Positions 6,404 to 44,962 of a stretch of DNA of 64,000 bases are shown here, piece after piece (the stretch's first letter is position 1; every line of letters starts with the position of its first letter). The DNA is taken from assembly GCF_014635685.1 (NCBI RefSeq), contig NZ_BMDH01000001.1, positions 806,001 to 870,000 on the forward strand, in the 5' to 3' direction. This stretch comes from Galliscardovia ingluviei. GTDB lineage: Bacteria > Actinomycetota > Actinomycetes > Actinomycetales > Bifidobacteriaceae. The position numbers were made by a program, and so were the translations under genes. The notes under the pieces were generated by a model that had not been told where the DNA came from, made no database searches, and saw only the letters and a program-made list of their open reading frames with translations.

Positions 6404-7030
6404 TTAGCGAGCGTAGAACTCGACCACGTACTGAATATTTACCTGAACTGGAATCTCTTCCACTTCTGGCTTACGGGTCAAAGTTGCCTTCAAACTTGCC
6501 AAATCAACAGTCAAATATCCTGGAACTGCTGGCAATACATCGCGGTGTACACCTTCTGCAGCAATCTGGAATGGAACCATGGTCTGGCTCTTTGGACGAA
6601 CCTGAATGGTCTGACCTGGCTTGACGTGGTAGCTCGGACGATCAACCTTGTTGCCATCGACCAAAATATGACCGTGAACAACGAACTGACGTGCCTGAGC
6701 GGTTGTGCGAGCAAAACCTGCGCGCAATACTAATGCGTCAAGACGGGATTCCAAATCAACAAGCATGGCGTTACCAGTCTGACCAGCTTCGTGAGTGCCC
6801 TTCTCATAAGCGGCGCGAAGCTGCTTCTCGGAGATACCATACTGTGCGCGCAGACGCTGCTTCTCGCGCAGACGTACTGCATAATCAGACTCAGTGCGAC
6901 GACGAGTACGACCATGCTCACCTGGAGCATATGGACGCTTCTCGAAGATACGCTGAGCTTTTGGAGTTAAAGCAATGCCGAGGGAGCGTGAAAGACGCAC
7001 CTGACGGCGGGAACGCTGAACGTTTGTCAT
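6404..7030 (-). CDS. rpsD: 30S ribosomal protein S4
   Basis: Primary 16S rRNA-binding protein that nucleates 30S assembly. The 208-aa sequence opens MTNVQRSRRQVRLSRSLGI and has the S4 RNA-binding domain around residues 97-160 (SRLDALVLRAGFARTTAQARQFVVHGHILVDG). It is the zinc-free form, with no Cys-rich N-terminal motif. Start ATG preceded by GATTGGGAA. Here it is a single-gene unit between its own promoter/leader and a strong terminator. Confidence 0.97.
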   Translation of the reverse strand: MTNVQRSRRQVRLSRSLGIALTPKAQRIFEKRPYAPGEHGRTRRRTESDYAVRLREKQRLRAQYGISEKQLRAAYEKGTHEAGQTGNAMLVDLESRLDALVLRAGFARTTAQARQFVVHGHILVDGNKVDRPSYHVKPGQTIQVRPKSQTMVPFQIAAEGVHRDVLPAVPGYLTVDLASLKATLTRKPEVEEIPVQVNIQYVVEFYAR

Positions 7031-7217
7031 TTCCCAATCTTTCTGTCGTTATTTGAACGGAACATTATGCGGTTGCATAATGCTGAGCCGGCCTCTCCAA
7101 CGCTTCACCACGCAAGCGTGAACAACTTAAGTTGCCGTCCCGTTGATGGGCTAAGGCTCCAGAAACACCTGACGGTGTAACGCTGGCTAACTATACACGA
7201 AGGTAGGAATAAGCCAA
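7031..7217 (-). promoter_or_regulatory. rpsD promoter and structured 5' leader
   Basis: A sigma-70-like promoter lies immediately after the pcrA stop: -35 TTGGCT (7217-7212), 16-nt spacer, -10 TATAGT (7195-7190). It implies a leader of about 150 nt. The leader contains several complementary stretches, including a perfect 8-bp stem with a 4-nt loop (CATTATGC/GCATAATG, 7063-7082) about 33 nt before the start codon. S4 autoregulates its own synthesis in other bacteria by binding such leaders, so this is a candidate S4-binding leader; it matches no structure I can name. Confidence 0.55.
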
Positions 7218-7222
7218 GTATC

Positions 7223-9841
7223 TTAAATTTTTTCAATAGGAGCCACACGCAGTAATAGTCGTTTCACACCATCAGAGCCAAAATCAACAGTAATAACTGA
7301 ATTTCGCCCTTTATCCTGTGTATCAACTACCGTGCCTAAACCATACTGGTCATGATTTACGCGATCTCCGATATGAAAATCATTAATAGATACGCTTTGC
7401 TCAGAAGGCGATGTTGCTGTAGATGGCGCTGGAGTACGTTGTTTTGCTCGGCTTACGGAATCCAACAGTTGCTGACGCATACGCTTTGTGGTTACAGGTC
7501 CAGATTTTGACGAAGTGCGACCATACCCATTATAGGAGCGTGAACCATAAGAGTGTGAACCATATGAACTAGAGCTTGATGAGGCATATCCATACCCGCT
7601 GCGCGAATTGCCATAAGAACCACCATAAGAGCTACTAGAAGAGCTACCATAATTCGCAGCACCATACGTGGAGTAATCAGCATAATCGTCTTCGAACCCA
7701 CCAAATTCGTCACTAGCAAAACGCGATGATGAACCGCCATAGCCGCCTTCACGCATGCGTTCCATTGATGAAGATTTACGCTTCCAATCCATCAGCTCTT
7801 GTGGAATATCATCAAGGAATTGGCTTGGCATCATATCTTGTGCCTGTCCCCACTGCGCACGCACAGCAGCACGGGTAACATAGAGGATTTTGCGAGCGCG
7901 AGTAATACCCACATAGGCCAAACGTCGTTCTTCTTCAAGCTCACTGGCATTTTCCATTGCTCGAGCATGAGGGAACGTGCCCTCTTCCATACCGGTAAGG
8001 AAAACCACTGGATATTCCAAGCCCTTTGCCGTATGCAGGGTCATCAAAGTGACCGTACCTAAATCTTGAGATTCATCAGGAAGTTGGTCACTATCAGAAA
8101 CCAAGGCTGTAGTCTCTAAAAAGCCACTCAAAGAAGCGTCAGGCGTAGTCTGTTCATATTCAGCAGCAGTAGACTGTAGCTGCGAAAGATTATCAACGCG
8201 CGTTAAATCTTGTGGATCTTTTGATTGTTTAAGCTCTGATAACAGTCCTGAATGATCAAGCACATGTGCTACTACTTCGCTAGGCTTAGCATCATGGGCT
8301 ACAGCAAAAATGCGCATTTGCTCAAGCTCATCAGCAAACTTTGCCATCAATGTTGCAGTTCGCGTTGGTACCGAAGCTATACTGCCGCTGGCACATGCTT
8401 CAAGCGCACTAAACATGCTCATTCCATGCTCATTCGCCACCTGCGTAATCAGTGCTTCTGCGCGAGCACCAAGTCCACGTTTTGGCGTATTTAAAATGCG
8501 TAAGAAATTCACGCCGTCATCAGGGTTGGCGATAACCTGCAAATATGCTAATGCGTCTTTTACTTCTTTGCGCTCATAAAACTTCGTACCACCTACAATT
8601 TGGTATGGTAGTCCTGCATGAATTAGTGCCTCTTCTAATGATCTTGACTGAGCATTAGCGCGATACATTATTGCCATATCGGAATACGCAATGGACTCTT
8701 CACTAGCAAGGCGTGCAATTTCAGTAGCAATCCAAGCGCCCTCTTGTTGCGCATTATCAGCAGCATAGCCGATAATTTTTGAGCCTTCACCAAACGCAGT
8801 CCACAGTTTTTTTGGTTTCCTACCTGGATTATGGGCAATAACTGCATTAGCGGCATTCAAAATTGTTTGCGTTGAGCGATAATTTTGTTCAAGCAAAATA
8901 GTTGTTGCATGAGGAAAATCTTGCTCAAACTCTTGAATATTGCGAATATCAGCGCCTCGGAATGCATAAATAGACTGGTCCGAATCACCTACAACAGTAA
9001 TCCATGCTGCATCATCAGCACCAACATGAGCTAGCTCGCGAATCAGCACATACTGAGCGTGATTAGTATCCTGATACTCATCGACAAGAATATAGCGGAA
9101 CATCTGATGATACTTGGCAGCAACTTCTGCATTACTTTGTAAGAGTTCCACAGTGCGCATAATAAGATCATCAAAATCAACAGCATTCGCTGCAGCAAGT
9201 CGATGTTGATATTCTGCGTATACACACGCAGCTACATACTCTTGATTACCCGCATCGGCAATAGTTGTGCCAGTTTTACCGGGCACAAAATCTGGCGCAA
9301 AATCAGCAAGCACTTGACTTGCAGTGCGTAAACTATTTTTATAATCTGAAATTTTTGCTAGCAGTGCACGCGGCGTGTAGCGTTTGGCATCAATATTAAA
9401 ATCAGCGCTAATAAGCTTAATCAGACGAGTGCTATCCGCAGTATCATAAATAGAAAATCCTGATTTTAAGCCAATTGCTGAGCCATCAGATCGCAAAATA
9501 CGTACACACGCTGAGTGAAATGTTGATACCCACATATGTTGAGCAACTGGACCAATAAGCGAAGCAAGGCGCTGCTTCATTTCCGCTGCTGCCTTATTGG
9601 TAAAGGTAATTGCCAGAATTTGACGAGAAGAGGCGTGCAATTGTTGCATTAACCAAGCAATTCTGCGAGTAAGCACGCGTGTTTTTCCAGAACCTGCACC
9701 TGCTGCAATCAGTAATGCTGGACCTTGATAGGTTACTGCTGCTAACTGTTGGTCATTGAGCCCCTCAGTCAACGCAGCCTCTGCGTGATGGTTAGCATTT
9801 CCAGTTTCTGGCGCTGGAGGTACCGGAATATCAAATGTCAT
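7223..9841 (-). CDS. pcrA: ATP-dependent 3'-5' DNA helicase PcrA/UvrD
   Basis: Superfamily 1A helicase acting in nucleotide excision repair, replication restart and transcription-coupled repair. Q-motif LNDQQLAAV, Walker A AGAGSGKTR, motif II VDEYQDTN, motif III GDSDQSIYAFRGA, motif IV LEQNYRST, motif V TLHTAKGLEYPVVF and motif VI EEERRLAYVGITRA are all present. The C-terminus (FHIGDRVNHDQYGLGTVV and on) is the Tudor-like domain that binds RNA polymerase in PcrA. Between the core and the Tudor lies a long Ser/Gly/Tyr-rich linker (about residues 695-790). The ATG at 9841 with GAGGA 6 nt upstream is preferred over an in-frame TTG two codons earlier. Confidence 0.96.
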   Translation of the reverse strand: MTFDIPVPPAPETGNANHHAEAALTEGLNDQQLAAVTYQGPALLIAAGAGSGKTRVLTRRIAWLMQQLHASSRQILAITFTNKAAAEMKQRLASLIGPVAQHMWVSTFHSACVRILRSDGSAIGLKSGFSIYDTADSTRLIKLISADFNIDAKRYTPRALLAKISDYKNSLRTASQVLADFAPDFVPGKTGTTIADAGNQEYVAACVYAEYQHRLAAANAVDFDDLIMRTVELLQSNAEVAAKYHQMFRYILVDEYQDTNHAQYVLIRELAHVGADDAAWITVVGDSDQSIYAFRGADIRNIQEFEQDFPHATTILLEQNYRSTQTILNAANAVIAHNPGRKPKKLWTAFGEGSKIIGYAADNAQQEGAWIATEIARLASEESIAYSDMAIMYRANAQSRSLEEALIHAGLPYQIVGGTKFYERKEVKDALAYLQVIANPDDGVNFLRILNTPKRGLGARAEALITQVANEHGMSMFSALEACASGSIASVPTRTATLMAKFADELEQMRIFAVAHDAKPSEVVAHVLDHSGLLSELKQSKDPQDLTRVDNLSQLQSTAAEYEQTTPDASLSGFLETTALVSDSDQLPDESQDLGTVTLMTLHTAKGLEYPVVFLTGMEEGTFPHARAMENASELEEERRLAYVGITRARKILYVTRAAVRAQWGQAQDMMPSQFLDDIPQELMDWKRKSSSMERMREGGYGGSSSRFASDEFGGFEDDYADYSTYGAANYGSSSSSSYGGSYGNSRSGYGYASSSSSSYGSHSYGSRSYNGYGRTSSKSGPVTTKRMRQQLLDSVSRAKQRTPAPSTATSPSEQSVSINDFHIGDRVNHDQYGLGTVVDTQDKGRNSVITVDFGSDGVKRLLLRVAPIEKI

Positions 9842-43414: not shown

Positions 43415-43657
43415 TTACTGCTTCGTATGGCGATGCTTGTTGTCTAAATAGTCTTGCGCAAAGAACCACTCAGAGAGCATAAAAACAAAAATTAGTGCAA
43501 TTACACTCGCCATTATCGCTGAACCACTTGCTTGAAAAAATGCAACCCATAATGATGGTACAGCAGTTAAACATGTTATTAGTAGTGCCCATGCATGACC
43601 TGTCATATGTGATTGCTTGTAATAATGCTTATTTGCATTCCAGACTTCCCGTAACAT
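43415..43657 (-). CDS. small membrane protein with MTGH motif, paralogue of the next gene
   Basis: An 80-aa protein starting MLREVWNANK, chosen because GAGGGAG lies 7 nt before this ATG; the longer open frame to 43765 has no such site. Met-Thr-Gly-His at residues 18-21 is followed by two hydrophobic helices (about 23-42 and 46-66) and a basic tail ending NKHRHTKQ. It aligns with the neighbouring 105-aa protein through MTGH, LL(I/L)T and the second helix (FVFMLSEW versus VFFLIFEF). Function unknown; the position downstream of a secreted Cys protein suggests an immunity or export role, which is inference. Confidence 0.7.
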   Translation of the reverse strand: MLREVWNANKHYYKQSHMTGHAWALLITCLTAVPSLWVAFFQASGSAIMASVIALIFVFMLSEWFFAQDYLDNKHRHTKQ

Positions 43658-43779
43658 AGTAAACTCCCTCACCGTATCAACTTCGATACCATTTCGATTA
43701 CGAGATGCATACGTTGACTTATACCCCAGAGAATGTGGACATCTTTTTACTTTAGATGCCCACATTCCGATAAATCAGA

Positions 43780-44097
43780 TTATAGAACGTAAATCCAAGC
43801 AACCGCTACCACAAGGATTACTGCACACACAACAGCGAAAATTAGAAACTTCCAACCTGTTTTTTTCTTATGCTGTTCTTGAGAAACGTTCATACGGTAG
43901 AGCGCAAACTCAAAAATTAAGAAGAACACTATAATCACAGCAACAGATGCAACAAACATTACTATGTCAAACTCTTTGATAGACATAATAATAAGATTCA
44001 TCCCTAAAATTGCCGTCAAGAGCAAGCTCAACTGGTGTCCGGTCATTGTGGAGTGAGATACAGGATTTTTGTTCATTGTTACTATATCATGTATCAT
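43780..44097 (-). CDS. small membrane protein with MTGH motif
   Basis: A 105-aa protein with Met-Thr-Gly-His at residues 18-21, then three hydrophobic helices (about 22-40, 44-64, 84-105) separated by a basic loop (QEQHKKKTGWK). Start ATG has AAGGAG 7 nt upstream. The gene lies 12 nt after the stop of the secreted-protein gene and 120 nt before the 80-aa paralogue, consistent with one operon. I do not recognise a named family. Small multi-helix proteins next to a bacteriocin-like precursor are often immunity proteins. Confidence 0.7.
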   Translation of the reverse strand: MIHDIVTMNKNPVSHSTMTGHQLSLLLTAILGMNLIIMSIKEFDIVMFVASVAVIIVFFLIFEFALYRMNVSQEQHKKKTGWKFLIFAVVCAVILVVAVAWIYVL

Positions 44098-44109
44098 TAT
44101 TTTCTCCTT

Positions 44110-44664
44110 TTAACACGAGATCCAAGTCACTAAAGCTTCGACACCACCTGCACATCCAGCGGCGACAAAAGCTTCAGCAACACCAGCAGAAACACCTGTG
44201 GCAGCAATAGCAGCAGGTGTGCAGACTAATAGATCACCCGATACTCTAACCAACCACTGCGCCCACTTGTTGTTTGTACAACCGTTCGCCGACATTAGCC
44301 CAAAAGACGAGGAATTAACAATACGCAAAGTACTAGTCGTACTGTTAAATACTACTTTTTTGCCGACAGGAAGAGTGACAGTAATTTTCGCAACATTTGT
44401 TCCAGATGCATTAACCAATGTTACTTCGTTGTTTTTAATTACAAAACTATCCCCATCAAGTAGCTGAGCATGTACATCAACACCATTTGAGCTGTCTAAT
44501 GTACGCGTTCCATCTTTTGCAGGTATAATCGCTAACGTATCGTTAGTTGTTTCAATGCCAGCAGCGTTCGCTACAGTTGCTTGAGAAGGCAATAAGAAAA
44601 CACAAAATGAAAGTGCCGCCAATAAAACAAAGAATGACTCCACTATCCTTTTTATTCTATACAT
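44110..44664 (-). CDS. secreted bacteriocin-like precursor of unknown family
   Basis: A 184-aa protein with a clear signal peptide (basic MYRIKR, hydrophobic core to about residue 27, cleavage likely after VANA near 34). The middle (about 55-118) is beta-rich and polar (DSFVIKNNEVTLVNASG, ITVTLPVGKKVVF). The C-terminal 56 residues begin at Cys129 and include Cys148, Cys171 and a terminal Cys184, with a Gly/Ala-rich hydrophobic stretch AAIAATGVSAGVAEAFVAAG. The layout of signal, spacer and Cys-containing hydrophobic C-terminus recalls halocin-C8-like bacteriocin precursors, but I cannot confirm homology. Ribosome site AAGGGGG. First gene of a three-gene cassette lying between rpsA and coaE. 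Confidence 0.65.
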   Translation of the reverse strand: MYRIKRIVESFFVLLAALSFCVFLLPSQATVANAAGIETTNDTLAIIPAKDGTRTLDSSNGVDVHAQLLDGDSFVIKNNEVTLVNASGTNVAKITVTLPVGKKVVFNSTTSTLRIVNSSSFGLMSANGCTNNKWAQWLVRVSGDLLVCTPAAIAATGVSAGVAEAFVAAGCAGGVEALVTWISC

Positions 44665-44894
44665 AATAGATACCCCCTTGTATCAGATAATGTGTTTATT
44701 TTCTCGGGAAATGAATAATGAAGCAAGTCCATTGACAATGCAACGTTAAACGATATCCATGTACAAGACATCAGATACAAACTAATTAAATTTTTAATCT
44801 TTTTGTTATAAAATAGATTCGCTTGAAAACATTTCCCACCTACAGGGTAGCACTTTTCAAATTTTTATGTAAGTGTGTGTCGATTTCAGGTATA

Positions 44895-44928
44895 CAAAAG
44901 GGCCTTTGCCCAAATAGAGCAAAGACCC
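44895..44928 (-). terminator. rpsA terminator
   Basis: On the minus strand GGGTCTTTGC and GCAAAGGCCC form a 10-bp stem with one G-U pair and a 9-nt loop, followed by TTTTGTAT. It follows the rpsA stop by 34 nt and separates rpsA from the cassette downstream. The remaining 230 nt to 44665 are very AT-rich and should contain the cassette promoter. Confidence 0.82.
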
Positions 44929-44962
44929 TGTAAGCAGTTATCAAGAACTAGTAGTGCTTAGA

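Follow-up and report, generated by a model that had tools for sequence, protein, structure and literature searches.

What is a cassette of three small genes doing between housekeeping genes of Galliscardovia ingluviei, and how did it come to be there? The cassette lies in a stretch of 64,000 nucleotides (the window; contig NZ_BMDH01000001.1, positions 806,001 to 870,000). A sequence-only reading of it had proposed an insertion encoding a bacteriocin-like toxin with immunity or export proteins. We consider it probable, from sequence analysis, that gene 1 encodes a Sec-exported proprotein which would release a disulfide-bonded bacteriocin, with the products of genes 2 and 3 (P0002 and P0003) as candidate immunity proteins.

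Results

A three-gene insertion separates rpsA from coaE

The neighbouring genes, called housekeeping by eye, are presumably rpsA, coaE and uvrB, named by recognition from sequence. An ORF check found the three cassette genes on the minus strand, at the place that the sequence-only reading gave (Table 1), and they are the sole ORFs large enough to matter in the inserted 1,691 nt. This figure is the rpsA-coaE gap in the window, compared with 145-309 nt (rpsA stop included) in all eight congeners, where rpsA, coaE and uvrB are consecutive. Sequence searches gave no accepted gene 1 relative in these eight genomes. The cassette starts just past a terminator-like hairpin of rpsA, and similar hairpins were seen by eye 3' of rpsA in the congeners. 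The cassette is an insertion between rpsA and coaE, as had been suggested, and was probably acquired there. CoaE was sought in 59 genomes and 30 of those loci were inspected; among the other Bifidobacteriaceae loci with both rpsA and coaE (n = 10), the gap is roughly 80-510 nt in nine. A long gap, of about 1.1 kb, is also present in the tenth (L072, genome G184).

The region upstream of gene 1, described earlier as AT-rich, has 31% G+C at 44600-44899, whereas the 3.5-kb window locus around it (L001) has 44%. That value is in turn below the 60-64% of the eight congener loci (L047-L054), and the rpsA protein is about 95% identical to those of the congeners despite that contrast. The inverted repeat that separates gene 2 from gene 3 may act as an attenuator or be the trace of the duplication.

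Table 1 Coordinates of the cassette and its parts, in window positions
Feature	Coordinates	Strand	Description	Basis or remark
gene 1	44110..44664	(-)	184-aa predicted exported proprotein, candidate bacteriocin precursor	ORF, relatives, conserved Cys
signal-like N terminus, residues 1-34	44563..44664	(-)	hydrophobic segment 7-25	cleavage after A-N-A is a guess
pro-region, residues 35-128	44281..44562	(-)	putative pro-region	weakly conserved in alignment
four-Cys domain, residues 129-184	44113..44280	(-)	candidate active peptide, putatively released
gene 2 (P0002)	43780..44097	(-)	105-aa membrane protein, candidate immunity protein	hydrophobic segments, adjoining relatives
gene 3 (P0003)	43415..43657	(-)	80-aa membrane protein, diverged gene 2 paralogue	similarity to gene 2
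AT-rich cassette leader	44665..44898	(-)	31% G+C	no Rfam match
inverted repeat, genes 2/3 intergenic	43731..43767	(.)	14-nt arms	93% complementary
rpsA terminator-like hairpin	44899..44929	(-)	left limit of inserted stretch

Gene 1 encodes a putative proprotein with four C-terminal cysteines

The gene 1 protein has Cys residues at positions 21, 129, 148, 171 and 184. Cys21, absent from the earlier list, sits in the signal-like N terminus; the other four therefore fall within the last 56 residues, and Cys184 is the last residue, just as the sequence-only reading had counted them. A signal-like segment was found in eight of the ten gene 1 family frames scanned, and was missed in L081 at the threshold used and in the copy on plasmid pLIM, the 5' part of which is cut by the record start. 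Export of the protein by the Sec pathway is supported by this predicted N terminus. Two AlphaFold models gave pLDDT values of 46 and 57. The models, whose confidence is too low to build on, hint at two helices in the four-Cys domain.

Residues 37-92, within the pro-region, weakly matched L002 at 1501-1668 (E = 4e-4, 36%), inside a 2271-aa frame of the window's own genome; this match is perhaps due to chance.

Four cysteines and a V-C-x-P motif are invariant in nine aligned members of the gene 1 family

Searches that were widened stepwise gave 11 full-length family members, including that of the window. Those in Bifidobacteriaceae are the window, G018 (L004), G125 (L003, nearly identical to L004), G052 (L005), G113 (L006), G015 (L042; E = 1.7e-5) and G128 (L098), and the carriers named in this family include B. 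amazonense, B. vespertilionis, B. italicum and Gardnerella swidsinskii. Outside it, four members occur in three Actinomycetales genomes: G615 (L081, E = 1.6e-17, and L087, E = 1.2e-3), G529 (L082, E = 3.3e-7) and G565 (L083, E = 1.5e-4); the start codons of these four are uncertain. L083 is tied to the family through the pLIM copy (48% over 60 residues, E = 1e-11), and the membership of L087, the lowest-scoring member, leans also on gene layout. Across 69% of its length, the G529 protein shows 97% identity to the pLIM copy, and G529 is for that reason probably a Brevibacterium. The two members in G615 are diverged from each other, and each has its own small membrane ORF.

We aligned nine members, leaving out L003 and L098. 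The four C-terminal Cys residues, the Val before the second of them and the Pro two residues after it (V-C-x-P) are invariant in all nine, so the Cys pattern is conserved in homologues, a test that had been set in advance. The second Cys follows the first at a spacing of 16-18; C2-C3 spacing is 22 in five members and 13-14 in four, and C3-C4 spacing equals 12 in five members and 16-17 in the remaining four. The fourth Cys is the last residue in six members and next to last in three. The family pattern can be written as C-x16-18-C-x-P, where Val precedes the second Cys, and closes with C-x12-C or C-x16-17-C. The search profiles include the Cys columns, which partly selects for conservation of these residues among weak hits. 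Independent support comes from the signal sequence and the downstream membrane ORF, which lie outside the domain covered by the profile. We also scanned 543,911 bases, holding 4,410 stop-terminated frames of 55+ aa with overlapping loci included. There, Cys-x14-20-[VILM]-Cys-x-Pro-x8-24-Cys-x10-18-Cys-x0-1-stop matched family members only, and the four-Cys spacing without a V-C-x-P-type motif also matched spurious frames.

Six of the nine aligned members have a Lys or Arg at most six residues before the first Cys, and the window protein has neither within six residues before Cys129. As a sign of activation by proteases this is suggestive only.

A small membrane protein gene adjoins gene 1 in every place

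Gene 2 starts 12 nt past the gene 1 stop, preceded by AAAGGAG, and its product has three hydrophobic segments. The gene 3 frame opens at 43765 (116 aa), but from a start at 43657, preceded by GAGGGAG, the 80-aa product aligns with that of gene 2 from its first residue, and this is our best reading of the two. That two small membrane proteins with ribosome sites follow gene 1 had been noted previously, and holds.

In 13 of 13 places gene 1 is adjoined by a membrane ORF, 78-145 aa long and containing one to three hydrophobic segments, which starts no more than 32 nt ahead of the gene 1 stop and no more than 34 nt beyond it. As a control, small (60-130 aa) hydrophobic ORFs were counted within 40 nt of long ORFs in eleven stretches. 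They adjoin 15 of 180, and seven of those 15 belong to the gene 1 family (overlapping stretches of one genome included), which leaves a background of 8 in 173. Two membrane ORFs in a row are found in pLIM and G529, as in the window. P0002 has relatives among the membrane ORFs, namely those of G065, G041 and B. italicum, and is also related to P0003, making genes 2 and 3 paralogues, which the sequence-only reading had not noticed; it has a weak match, in one direction, to the membrane ORF of G. swidsinskii. At the threshold used, the membrane ORFs from outside Bifidobacteriaceae and that of G015 gave no match to the P0002 group, in a comparison whose E-values refer to the 13-sequence set. Immunity proteins commonly diverge fast.

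Gene 1 is scattered, plasmid-borne in one case, and decays beside open membrane genes

Gene 1 copies were found in nine of 189 Bifidobacteriaceae genomes: seven full length (G000, G015, G018, G052, G113, G125, G128), one frameshifted (G135) and one remnant (G065). These nine were accepted after inspection from 18 genomes matched at E up to 0.05; G033, G041, G046, G105, G123, G162, G171, G172 and G173 were rejected, as was a second place in G135, and rows L106 and L109 were judged without reading by eye. The cassette is thus not general in the family, and it is absent at this site from all eight congeners, so that neither of the two results named beforehand as refuting the sequence-only reading turned up. 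At the order level, five of 396 genomes carry accepted copies, G000 and G052 being already in the family count, and at the class level the window holds the sole accepted copy among 246 genomes. Weak, partial matches were dropped in G105, G084 and G037 (second search), in G148, G515 and G542 (order; L085 not by eye), and in G284 and G301 (class; not by eye, without the V-C-x-P pattern); the first search also discarded G084 (an antisense frame) and the second place of G000 (L002). A contig scan returned four loci, and does not bound the distribution because a single peptide pattern was used.

Plasmid pLIM of Brevibacterium linens (L091, NC_002522.1) carries a family member at 7252-7608 on the minus strand, followed by two small membrane ORFs at 6811-7248 and 6567-6809, also minus. 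No gene is listed for the member, its frame being cut by the record start, and the plasmid gene table omits genes that span this point. The size of pLIM and its comparison with pBLA8 are given in the available portion of PMC6579920. Searches with window gene 1 gave no relative in the plasmids, phages or viral contigs searched, nor did plasmid searches with L081 and L005 or a phage search with L082. Transposase genes adjoin the copies in G125 (ISL3 type) and in G052 and G529 (integrase core).

In three genomes the secreted gene has decayed next to an open membrane ORF. Only its C-terminal part is left in G065, it is frameshifted in G135, and it is almost wholly lost in G041. G041 and G065 have membrane proteins that are almost the same, so these two may represent one lineage and the decay two or three events.

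Searches return no named family

The gene 1 family found nothing above the curated cut-offs of Pfam or NCBIfam, which agrees with the sequence-only reading having recognised no named family. PHROGs (gene 1 members) and PADLOC (the three window proteins) likewise gave no match above cut-off, and PDB sequence searches returned nothing credible. The lowest E-values were set aside because they fall on membrane proteins and were taken to reflect hydrophobic composition; P0002 matched NADH dehydrogenase subunit M at E = 4e-4, with 19 bits against a cut-off of 550. The profile JUQZ_fam_ocin (described in the part of PMC11747845 available) matched one of five members at E = 0.075 and was given no weight; the match did not appear for the window protein, L004, L005 or L006, which leaves L003, the near twin of L004. 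No description of the gene 1 family was found in the literature searched, most subscription journals being outside its scope. Brevibacterium bacteriocins, as set out in the available text of PMC5719810, comprise linocin M18-like proteins and five groups of modified peptides, and nothing in that text resembles the gene 1 family.

Discussion

A candidate toxin and its candidate immunity protein

How might the cassette work? Sec would export the gene 1 proprotein, and two disulfides, expected because an exported peptide has four invariant Cys residues, would form outside the cell. The pro-region would hold the peptide inactive until a protease cuts shortly before Cys129. The freed hydrophobic Gly/Ala-rich peptide of about 56 residues may then damage the membranes of related Gram-positive bacteria, with the gene 2 product acting as a membrane immunity protein that protects the producer. 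Gene 3, as a diverged duplicate, may supply a second immunity protein or one of changed specificity. Such a system would need no dedicated exporter or modifying enzyme.

The toxin-plus-immunity part of the sequence-only reading, itself put forward tentatively, gains support from the constant two-gene layout, the plasmid copy, the duplication of the membrane gene and the cases in which the putative toxin gene is broken but the membrane gene next to it is open. The export role suggested for the membrane proteins gains no support, as the precursor itself carries a Sec-type signal. Features generally looked for in a bacteriocin are present, namely a predicted exported precursor with a conserved mature part and, as a matter of layout, an adjoining small membrane gene. 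We judge evenly balanced the broader proposal that the gene 1 proteins form an unnamed actinomycete bacteriocin family, in which four-Cys peptides would be freed from Sec-exported proproteins by proteases of the neighbourhood outside the cell, the pro-region being a built-in inhibitor and the fast-diverging small membrane protein conferring immunity.

The hydrophobic C-terminal domain and the adjoining membrane partner would also suit an envelope or surface protein that is retained by the cell through its four-Cys tail, with the membrane proteins as anchor or assembly partners. Such a structural role sits poorly with a gene 1 that is scattered across genomes, occurs on a plasmid, has diverged partners and decays one-sidedly, and we regard it as unlikely. 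A secreted signalling peptide, or pheromone, processed or sensed by the small membrane partners would likewise fit an exported precursor whose C-terminal peptide is conserved and to which a membrane protein is linked. However, pheromones tend to be short and to be accompanied by a kinase or regulator, which the inserted stretch lacks, and loss of gene 1 beside an open membrane gene fits immunity better; we think a pheromone distinctly unlikely.

Halocin C8 has ten Cys residues, an N-terminal immunity part and a C-terminal Cys- and Gly-rich domain. The gene 1 proteins share a C-terminal domain of this kind, but have four Cys residues with other spacing and a separate membrane gene in place of the N-terminal immunity part. 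Kinship with halocin C8-like proteins, which the sequence-only reading had named for a profile search, was not borne out. L083 touches TIGR04449 over residues 110-138 (E = 2.2), with 9.3 bits against a cut-off of 24; the other nine of ten gene 1 proteins had no match at E up to 10, and the single genome hit of TIGR04449 was a spurious Cys-rich frame. That gene 1 is a true, distant member of this family is very improbable.

If the bacteriocin reading is true, the family would take in bifidobacteria from animals, a species of the human vagina and the plasmid cargo of a cheese bacterium. It would offer a possible function for pLIM, which in the available text of PMC6467879 is, with similar plasmids, called of unknown function. 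The simple pattern and the likely immunity gene next to it yield candidates to synthesise and test, and a possible marker for resistant strains. Competition among bifidobacteria and Gardnerella shapes human-associated communities.

Comparison with known systems

Among ORFs large enough to matter, the inserted 1,691 nt hold no gene for a modifying enzyme, and by eye the neighbours are housekeeping genes; a modified peptide (lanthipeptide, sactipeptide and the like) was set aside. Class IIa comprises small disulfide bacteriocins, some with four Cys residues and a C-terminal Cys, and has a small linked immunity protein. The gene 1 proteins differ in their Cys spacing, in a Sec-type signal instead of a double-glycine leader and in a membrane-embedded immunity candidate. 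The class IIa motif YGNGV, placed near the N terminus of the mature peptide in the available text of PMC3546714, was absent by eye from the nine aligned members.

The system that the gene 1 protein would work most like, compared by description only, is PAMP, the protease-activated antimicrobial peptide of Propionibacterium jensenii. As described in the accessible part of PMC5756557, PAMP is exported as a proprotein that measures about 200 aa and bears a signal peptide of 27 aa; its C-terminal fragment is the active part, and proteases activate it outside the cell. The gene 1 product is likewise actinobacterial and a predicted exported proprotein, with a putative C-terminal active part that proteases would set free, as is described for PAMP.
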